Shown here: positions 18,944 through 20,197 of the stretch, piece after piece
Layout of the letters: every line of letters begins with the position of its first letter
Position numbering within the stretch: the stretch's first letter is position 1
Assembly: GCA_017649325.1 (NCBI GenBank)
Contig: JAGCHA010000018.1
Coordinates: 1 to 39,344, forward strand
DNA length: 39,344 nucleotides
Direction: 5' to 3'
DNA from: Ruminococcus sp.
GTDB taxonomy: Bacteria; Bacillota; Clostridia; Oscillospirales; Ruminococcaceae
Translations under genes and position numbers: made by a program
Notes under the pieces: generated by a model
The model's database searches: none
The model's input: only the letters and a program-made list of their open reading frames with translations
Told to the model about the DNA's origin: nothing

Positions 18944-18972
18944 AGTATAAGCGATTTGGGAGAAAAATGCAA
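18944..18972 (-). promoter_or_regulatory. Sigma-A promoter of GNAT and two-component genes
   Basis: On the minus strand: -35 TTGCAT, 17-bp spacer, -10 TATACT, 31 bases upstream of the GNAT start. It is the only clear promoter for the three minus-strand genes. Confidence 0.7.
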
Positions 18973-19054
18973 GCGCCGAGCAGGCTCTCGAAGAAGCTTG
19001 CTGGGTGTATAAGCGGCATAGCAAAAACAAACGGAAAAATTTTCTCCGCGCGGC

Positions 19055-19083
19055 TTGCTATTTGCGGATTAGTGTGGTATAAT
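19055..19083 (+). promoter_or_regulatory. Sigma-A promoter of the corA leader transcript
   Basis: -35 TTGCTA, 17-bp spacer, -10 TATAAT. The predicted transcript start near 19090 leaves a 180-base leader before corA. Confidence 0.75.
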
Positions 19084-19112
19084 ATAAATACTTTGATTCA
19101 GGAGGTGCATTT

Positions 19113-19202
19113 ATGAGTTCCGACCCTTATGGGAATTGTCTGAATAATTCCATACTGCGAAGAGCTGTATACGTGCCTCCGTTTTTATGCCCTGACGCCT
19201 GA
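19113..19202 (+). CDS. 29-codon leader peptide upstream of corA
   Basis: ATG 19113 is preceded by AGGAGG with ideal spacing, and the frame ends at TGA 19200. The peptide starts MSSDPYGN and ends VPPFLCPDA. It carries four prolines, three of them in the last nine residues including a Pro-Pro pair, which is a known cause of ribosome slowing. The 3' half of the open frame overlaps arm A of the RNA structures described for this leader, so its translation could decide whether the corA ribosome binding site is free. Salmonella corA and mgtA have short leader frames that control their Mg transporters; this peptide does not resemble them in sequence. A role as a regulatory leader is inference. Confidence 0.65.
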   Translation: MSSDPYGNCLNNSILRRAVYVPPFLCPDA

Positions 19203-19261
19203 TCTCCCGCGCAGGGCAGCACGGCGGTGAAGCTTCTTCGCAGTAAATACTGCGAAAGGAG
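19153..19261 (+). promoter_or_regulatory. Alternative-pairing attenuator of corA
   Basis: Three segments compete. A is tactgcgaaga plus gct (19153-19166). B is agct plus tcttcgcagta (19231-19245). C is actgcgaa (19249-19256), which directly abuts the corA Shine-Dalgarno AAAGGAG (19255-19261). B can pair with A (11 bp perfect, plus 3 bp after a one-base bulge) or with C (8-bp stem, loop aaat). A and C share the same octamer. The B-C hairpin would hide part of the Shine-Dalgarno; the A-B pairing would free it. A further hairpin, gccctg (19189-19194) with cagggc (19212-19217), lies in between. Confidence 0.6.
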
Positions 19262-19270
19262 ATATATCCG

Positions 19271-20197
19271 ATGATAAGCTATTACACCTCCGATAACGGC
19301 AGGCTCGACCCTATAGATTCCATAGAGAGCGGCTGCTGGGTATCGGTGATAGACCCGTCTCCGCAGGAGATAAAAATGCTCATTGACGACTTCGGGCTCG
19401 ACAGCGGCTTCGTCAAGTCGTCACTCGATGAGGAGGAGTCTTCGCGTATCGAACGCGAGGACGACCAGACCCTCATCATCGTAGACACGCCCGTAGCCTC
19501 GACCGAGGAGGACGAGACGAAGGTGTTCTACACCATGCCTATCGGCATAATAATCACAGATGAAAACGTGTTTACTATATCGCTGCACGCTACGCAGATA
19601 ATCGACGAGGCGGTGCGAGGTACGATACGCAACCTCCGCCCGACGTTCAAGACGCGTTTTGTATTGCAGCTCCTGCTGAGGATAGCAGCGCTGTTCCTGT
19701 ACTACCTAAAGCAGATAGATAAGCTGTCATCCGCAGCCGAGCAGCAGCTTCACGACGCGATGAAGAACGAGCTTCTCATGCAGCTTCTGGCGCTTGAGAA
19801 ATCCCTCGTATATTTTTCGACTTCATTGAAGGCGAACGAGGCAACGATAGAGAAGATATTCCGCGGGCGCGTCATCAAGCTCTACGACGAGGATCAGGAC
19901 CTCCTTGAGGACGTGCTCATCGAGATGAAGCAGGCGATAGAGATGTCGAGCATATATTCGGGCATCCTGTCTCACATGATGGACGGCTTCTCGTCTGTAA
20001 TATCGAACAATCTGAACATCGTGATGTGGCGCCTGACTATCGTCACCATTTTAATGGAGATACCGAACATCATCTTTGCGCTGTACGGTATCAACACGGT
20101 GGATCTGCCGCTGCCCTTCACATGGTTCCCGATATCGCTGGCAGTGTTCCTGACGGCAGTCGCAGCTGTGATACTGATAAAGTGGAAGAAGAAATAG
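19271..20197 (+). CDS. corA: CorA-family Mg/divalent cation transporter
   Basis: This 308-residue protein has a large cytoplasmic N-terminal domain with long helices (residues 1-245) and two C-terminal membrane helices separated by the selectivity loop YGIN, a common variant of the CorA GMN motif. The second helix ends in basic residues (IKWKKK). It lets Mg2+, and in some members Co2+, Ni2+ or Zn2+, into the cell as a pentamer. AAAGGAG is at 19255-19261 and the ATG at 19271. It is the only large gene on a transcript with a structured leader, and a terminator follows directly. Confidence 0.93.
   Translation: MISYYTSDNGRLDPIDSIESGCWVSVIDPSPQEIKMLIDDFGLDSGFVKSSLDEEESSRIEREDDQTLIIVDTPVASTEEDETKVFYTMPIGIIITDENVFTISLHATQIIDEAVRGTIRNLRPTFKTRFVLQLLLRIAALFLYYLKQIDKLSSAAEQQLHDAMKNELLMQLLALEKSLVYFSTSLKANEATIEKIFRGRVIKLYDEDQDLLEDVLIEMKQAIEMSSIYSGILSHMMDGFSSVISNNLNIVMWRLTIVTILMEIPNIIFALYGINTVDLPLPFTWFPISLAVFLTAVAAVILIKWKKK

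Follow-up and report, generated by a model that had tools for sequence, protein, structure and literature searches.

The window analysed here, a whole stretch of 39,344 nucleotides from a Ruminococcus sp. genome, raises a simple question: what does a short reading frame with its own strong ribosome-binding site do ahead of a corA gene? The original prediction, made from the letters alone, was that a leader peptide and a three-segment RNA switch act as a translational attenuator of a Mg2+ transporter in a Gram-positive gut bacterium, and that this arrangement belonged to no recognised class. The frame and its Shine-Dalgarno sequence are present, as are segments A, B, and C with both alternative pairings, in the sequence and in folds (Table 1). 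In the window, A:B consists of 11 bp and 3 bp separated by a one-base bulge, and B:C of 8 bp with a loop of 4 nt, while C adjoins the corA Shine-Dalgarno and takes in two of its seven bases, as had been claimed. The promoter-like site further upstream is weak taken alone (a mean of 0.5 such sites per shuffle).

Table 1. Parts of the corA locus, in positions of the window.
Feature	Positions	Strand	Basis
Promoter-like site, sigma-70-like, TTGCTA-17-TATAAT	19055..19083	+	10/12 consensus matches, TG ahead of second hexamer
Leader Shine-Dalgarno, GGAGGTG	19101..19107	+	Sequence
Leader peptide frame, 29 codons and stop, MSSDPYGNCLNNSILRRAVYVPPFLCPDA	19113..19202	+	ORF translation; leader common in genus
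Core codons Asp4-Pro5-Tyr6-Gly7 (GAC CCT TAT GGG)	19122..19133	+	Genus conservation
Candidate small hairpin directly 3' of core, GGAATTGT / ATAATTCC	19132..19151	+	Weak stem score
Segment A, within leader frame	19153..19166	+	Pairs with B
Segment B	19231..19245	+	Partner of A or of C
Segment C, overlapping 5' part of corA Shine-Dalgarno	19249..19256	+	B:C pairing kept
corA Shine-Dalgarno, AAAGGAG	19255..19261	+	Sequence; 9-nt spacer before ATG
corA, 308 aa, putative CorA-family divalent-cation channel	19271..20197	+	Pfam CorA match

The genome of the window comprises 2.2 Mb in 143 contigs and is 84% complete. By their CorA, its nearest named relatives are Ruminococcus flavefaciens YRD2003 (99% identical), a species placed at NCBI in the Clostridia, Bacillota, and a strain named Anaerotruncus sp. 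MC2020 (97%); the other close relatives are Ruminococcus assemblies from rumen or gut. The CorA of the window matches the Pfam CorA family (PF01544) at 158 bits, TIGR00383 at 90.9 bits, which is under the cut-off of 200.75 for that model, and solved CorA structures with a best E-value of 1.2e-21. Its GMN-like signature reads GIN (Tyr-Gly-Ile-Asn). This form is found in 75 of 80 named genus loci, the remaining five having Gly-Met-Asn, and GMN occurs in 33 of the 38 CorA signature matches obtained at distant loci with a loose pattern. On these matches, the product is probably a CorA-family channel with Mg2+ as its putative substrate. The second CorA-like gene of the genome (L002, on contig C33) has its own Shine-Dalgarno near the start and, by eye, no such leader. 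Viral contigs scanned for corA relatives contained none.

Conservation of the leader was followed in a genus set of 125 genomes, including that of the window. This CorA is found in 116 of them, and upstream DNA was read at 116 loci from 115 genomes, G106 giving two loci and a partial match in G035 being left out. The leader stands ahead of corA in 112 of the 116 loci (111 by pattern, with L195 added by eye), the exceptions being L021, L123, L141, and L156. All 111 leaders checked have GGAGG, GGCGG, GGTGG, or AGGAG no more than 18 nt upstream. The conservation predicted for Ruminococcus corA upstream regions is thus borne out, and from these comparisons the presence of the leader before corA is more than chance. 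Among the loci that lack it, L123 and L141 have, by eye, a leader-type Shine-Dalgarno directly before corA, and L156 keeps the C-region site.

What is conserved in the peptide is its beginning, a feature that the original prediction had left unremarked. The leader core reads Met-(Ser/Asn/Thr/Lys)-(Ser/Ala/Pro/Val/Thr)-Asp-Pro-(Tyr/Cys/Phe)-(Gly/Ala), so that the fixed element is Asp4-Pro5 in MxxDP(Y/C/F)G. Asp-Pro occupies codons 4-5 in 110 of the 112 leaders and codons 3-4 in the other two, which have one residue fewer before Asp. A strict DNA pattern of the core gives 105 matches in 103 of the 125 genus genomes, and the same pattern reversed gives none in the 125. Past codon 8, both sequence and length vary, and the leaders range from 10 to 45 codons. 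Stalling at a Pro-Pro pair in the C-terminal tail, which had been proposed from the window alone, was rejected: the tails are variable, and Pro-Pro occurs in only 4 of the 112 leaders.

Selection on the peptide itself is suggested by synonymous changes at codons 2-6 among the genus loci, together with the replacement of Asp by Glu in two distant leaders (MNPEP and MSPEP). The core is also constrained at the nucleotide level beyond the peptide. Its Asp codon is GAC in 108 of 112 leaders, and its Gly7 codon (19131-19133 in the window) is GGG in 110 of 112, whereas GGG accounts for 8% of glycine codons across the corA genes sampled. A candidate small hairpin after the core gives a weak signal, with a stem score of 12.05 against 11.05 in shuffled sequences and a score above the shuffle mean in 79 of 112 leaders, and TCC or CCC lies within leader nt 33-46 in 77 of 112. 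Such a hairpin (GGGA/TCCC), just 5' of A, could be the reason for the GGG at Gly7.

The strong constraint at GGG might also be read as the mark of a metal-binding riboswitch that overlaps the frame by chance, the peptide being irrelevant. The gammaproteobacterial corA motif has been put forward as a riboswitch candidate (PMC6429828). This explanation is nevertheless very unlikely, as the strong conservation lies at the beginning of a frame that has a strong Shine-Dalgarno, synonymous changes, and Asp-to-Glu replacement, and as A and C vary freely (77 and 61 distinct sequences, respectively, in 112 loci). Within the window, no Rfam family reaches its gathering score, and in 19050-19300 none matches at an E-value of up to 1. 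The M-box and the other known riboswitches of Rfam were rejected, no covariance model matching.

The second part of the prediction concerned covariation of A with B and of B with C. This was assessed by a permutation test on 49 non-redundant loci of 111, with windows chosen by position alone; L193 was excluded from this test and from the folding tests of Shine-Dalgarno access, its Shine-Dalgarno lying outside the rule used. For A:B, the pairing energy is -15.3 kcal/mol within species and -10.7 kcal/mol across species, and for B:C -11.9 and -8.8 kcal/mol, respectively; none of 10,000 permutations was as good in either case. Against a shuffled-partner control, B:C does better in 47 of 49 loci, while A:B does so in only 37 of 49.

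The helices can also be counted locus by locus. A:B reaches at least 7 bp in 106 of 112 loci. Under a strict, ungapped definition, in which A and C compete for at least 4 nt of B and B:C has at least 6 bp, mutually exclusive helices with B:C covering or adjoining the corA ribosome-binding site are found in 85 of the 112 loci, and 27 fail it. In these 85 loci, pairs of the B:C helix are kept through two-sided changes at several positions (one column has CG, AT, TA, and GC), and in 50 of them the helix extends as far as base 4 of the Shine-Dalgarno stretch RAAGGAG. Since the B partner was picked by best pairing, such pair counts are biased towards pairing, a bias of which the permutation test is free. 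A conserved, real switch at the corA ribosome-binding site is almost certainly indicated, and the comparison of the genus loci makes both switch and core well supported.

Two explanations that give the leader or the helices another role can be weighed at this point. In the first, coupling is constitutive, and the leader merely boosts corA initiation through re-initiation or by keeping the region open. The strong leader Shine-Dalgarno would suit this, as would the relatives in which the leader lies near corA or overlaps it. Hardly any credence can be given to it, given that the leader stop and the leader-to-corA distance are highly variable and that an A/B/C competition with complementarity maintained within species would have no role. 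In the second, A/B/C would set premature transcription termination, Rho-dependent as in enterobacterial corA, for which corL and Rho in E. coli offer a precedent (PMC11552253). Here, C adjoins the Shine-Dalgarno, and a search of the + strand of 18950-19290 for sites resembling intrinsic terminators gave none, which makes transcription attenuation most improbable.

An additional feature is found between the corA Shine-Dalgarno and the start codon. This gap exceeds 15 nt in 94 of the 112 genus loci, and all 94 have a hairpin in it (e.g., L133, L135, and L172). The 88 unique spacers have a mean energy of -11.7 kcal/mol against -5.0 kcal/mol in mononucleotide shuffles, with a median z of -3.2. The spacer of the window (19262-19270) is a plain 9 nt. 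A structured spacer inside the corA ribosome-binding site may constitute a second control element.

How a ribosome on the leader could throw the switch is suggested by the position of A. In 99 of the 106 species with an A:B helix of at least 7 bp, A starts at leader nt 34-49, most commonly at 40-41, and it begins about 20 nt past the core. In 97 of the 106, the leader stop is level with the 5' end of A or lies past it, the two being exactly flush in 17. A ribosome reaches about 15 nt forward of its P-site. With this reach, A would be free of a ribosome at codons 4-6 and covered by any ribosome from codon 10 onwards.

The reading that we favour, and hold to be probable, is a translational ON/OFF switch of corA that is read by the ribosomes on its leader, abortion at Asp-Pro being the event sensed. 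Ribosomes that pass the core would sit on A, B would pair with C, and corA initiation would be hindered (OFF). Abortion or pausing at Asp-Pro, expected at low Mg2+, would leave A free, and A:B would form and leave the corA ribosome-binding site open (ON). A:B would have the earlier opportunity because B is transcribed before C. Comparison shows a coding-like core, Asp-Pro (rarely Glu-Pro) at codons 4-5, the competing helices, and the geometry. We infer that the signal is Mg2+, that the event is drop-off, and that control runs in the direction given. That the leader senses Mg2+ is what the analogy with MgtL would lead one to expect.

Partition-function folding of 63 distinct A/B/C triples goes in the expected direction. 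A 16-nt block on A changes access to C and the Shine-Dalgarno by a mean of -0.10 to -0.14, and blocking the core changes it by +0.05 and +0.015; a block at nt 12-35 past the start of A gives a smaller drop (-0.07, n 17-20). When a block at nt 25-52 is compared with an occupied core, 47 of 111 loci lose more than 0.1 of their access to the Shine-Dalgarno and one gains access, and the C arm, for changes above 0.3, falls in 17 loci and rises in one. In many species, access is hardly altered in the folding models, and parking a ribosome at the stop codon gives, on average, no closure of the Shine-Dalgarno (0.32 vs. 0.27 when free). Equilibrium access is low even with A free (means of 0.24 for C and the Shine-Dalgarno and 0.27 for the Shine-Dalgarno), so that a kinetic argument is needed for the switch. 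Equilibrium folding is thus not decisive: it has the expected direction, yet is no proof of a switch.

The event at the core can be read in a second way. Only one acidic residue is present among the first ten in 103 of the 112 genus leaders, that of the window included, and the destabilising motifs described in the cited papers contain two. If two acids are required, adjacent or alternating as in EPDP, most genus leaders fall short, and some distant leaders have them (MDADP, MDSDP, and MDGDP). As a single acid is fewer than in the published motifs, stalling was kept as a rival to drop-off. Here, slow Asp-Pro, rare GGG, and perhaps a hairpin at the entry channel would arrest the ribosome and leave A free, and the signal could be Mg2+, the supply of Pro- or Gly-tRNA, or general translation stress. 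Where A lies with respect to the core is as compatible with arrest as with drop-off, and the near-invariant GGG at Gly7 would suit it. tRNA-Gly with anticodons UCC and GCC were seen and none with CCC, among 18 of 28 tRNA loci scanned in the 84% complete genome. No arrest motif known to us consists of a lone Asp-Pro. The distant leaders retain Asp or Glu but are free in the residue that follows (S, G, L, C, R, A, K, or Y), a pattern better suited to an effect of charge plus proline. The MgtL sequence, which contains XPX, is reportedly assisted by EfpL/EF-P (PMC11611912), a further point in favour of stalling. Taken together, arrest in place of drop-off appears unlikely, though worth keeping in view.

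The core was also followed beyond the genus. With the strict pattern, corA leaders were found in four more genera of the family (L204, L205, L218, and L229-L235); other family matches (MKADPYG and similar) were set aside, as they lie inside long coding frames, which we take to be glycogen-branching enzyme. At the level of the order, a pattern search gave further leaders before corA (L236/L248 and L249-L251). One order pattern, with a fixed Shine-Dalgarno spacing, misses the commonest form (GGTGCATTATG), and its 12 of 394 genomes are not evidence of absence; the search with a replacement pattern gave 10 of 394. Class-wide, the strict pattern matched 4 of 391, of which three belong to the home family; L255, the remaining one, has no corA nearby and was taken as chance.

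As the strict pattern misses diverged cores, corA upstream regions were read directly in 44 genomes outside the genus, this CorA being present in 21 of 30 and 23 of 79 genomes picked. Among starts preceded by a Shine-Dalgarno upstream of corA, 23 of 71 have Asp-Pro or Glu-Pro at codons 4-5, against 5 of 1,207 elsewhere in the same loci (p ~3e-37). Such a frame is present in 23 of the 44 corA loci, from nine families, or in 21 of 42 without L269 and L274, which came from pattern-matched genomes. L282 (MAGDPSS, by eye) is uncounted, being outside the Shine-Dalgarno rule of the script. Examples are MTADPSG, MNPDPGS, MSPDPSG, MKPDPLC, MDADPRT, MDSDPGG, MNPEPSI, and MSPEPDN. The other 21 of the 44 loci lack a counted start of this kind; they include near misses (MSADGNG in L261, MECDTGN in L295, MDSYPSI in L299, MADDVG in L272, and MPDAAD in L277), and besides these most have, by eye, nothing similar.

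The A/B/C segments of leaders outside the genus were inspected by eye only. In L266, L268, and L269, which are relatives in another family, the leader frame ends within corA, leaving no space for A/B/C. There, a ribosome finishing the leader would cover the corA start itself, the same logic being served by other hardware.

These observations allow a broader proposal, to which we give slightly less than even credence: an old, Clostridia-wide nascent-chain Mg2+ sensor, Met-x-x-(Asp/Glu)-Pro, would act on corA by aborting ribosomes at low Mg2+, and would have stayed fixed while its read-out was rebuilt several times, as an A/B/C switch or as an overlapping leader. To our knowledge, sensing of Mg2+ by ribosome drop-off is known only from enterobacteria. 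If the proposal is true, Gram-positives would have their first sensor class of this kind, convergent with or related to enterobacterial MgtL. An Asp-Pro corA leader in nine sampled Clostridia families would suggest that the Mg2+ dependence of the ribosome itself controls Mg2+ uptake far from E. coli. More than 100 natural variants would also be at hand for finding N-terminal residues that destabilise ribosomes.

Full-text literature searches, in a collection that lacks preprints and most subscription papers, turned up nothing recognisable as such a corA leader in Clostridia or other Gram-positives, and the passages of PMC8040213, PMC12992588, and PMC12121999 that match chosen terms contain nothing on it. 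The claim that the arrangement belongs to no recognised class needs qualifying: its layout works like Salmonella mgtQ-mgtB and its core resembles the EPDP of MgtL. That of a translational attenuator stands as a leader-peptide switch at the corA ribosome-binding site of a Gram-positive gut bacterium, with conserved A/B/C complementarity, and falls as regards stalling at prolines in the tail.

Several systems share parts of this arrangement. The corA motif RNA is likewise a structured RNA upstream of corA, its representatives being all gammaproteobacterial or metagenomic in the source (PMC6429828). The mycobacterial M-box with uORF2 offers another case, outside the enterobacteria, of a conserved short frame in a leader related to Mg2+, but that frame is controlled by the M-box riboswitch, is described as specific to mycobacteria, and precedes the pe20 operon instead of corA (PMC12810186). 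CorL-corA of the enterobacteria also has a leader before corA and two exclusive RNA structures, and in E. coli the translation of corL is inverse to corA expression (PMC11552253). The differences lie in CorL being, as described, poorer in acids and prolines than MgtL, in its use of UUG as the start codon in E. coli, and in an output that depends on Rho (PMC11552253).

In its peptide, the leader resembles MgtL-mgtA, in which an acid-Pro pair is also found at codons 4-5 (M-E-P-D-P); several of the distant leaders read M-x-P-D-P (PMC11282234, PMC11552253, and PMC11611912). For the EPDP motif of MgtL, ribosome drop-off at low Mg2+ has been reported in E. coli (PMC11282234). In both cases a Mg2+ transporter, putative here, lies downstream, and completion of the leader is linked to repression for MgtL and predicted to be so here. 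Unlike the leader described here, for which competing helices at the ribosome-binding site are predicted, MgtL is said to work at the level of transcription, by way of Rho.

In this read-out, the arrangement works like Salmonella mgtQ-mgtB. The Salmonella system likewise has a short frame with a strong Shine-Dalgarno and acids near the start, which are required in mgtQ (PMC8092293), and these acidic residues promote mgtB translation via competing helices over the ribosome-binding site. Alternative helices thus set the ribosome-binding site of a Mg2+ transporter free or closed at the level of translation, as is predicted here. The mgtQ frame, of 8 aa with acids at Asp2 and Glu5, belongs to an operon in which mgtC precedes and mgtB follows it, and controls a P-type ATPase (PMC8092293), whereas the present frame forms the 5' leader of corA, with Asp-Pro at codons 4-5 and three clear competing segments. 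Without translation of mgtQ, mgtB is lower because stems 1:2 and 3:4 form (PMC8092293), whereas here, absence of translation is expected to leave corA ON. What is most likely new is that a core of the MgtL kind is combined with a read-out of the mgtQ kind, ahead of corA and in Gram-positives.
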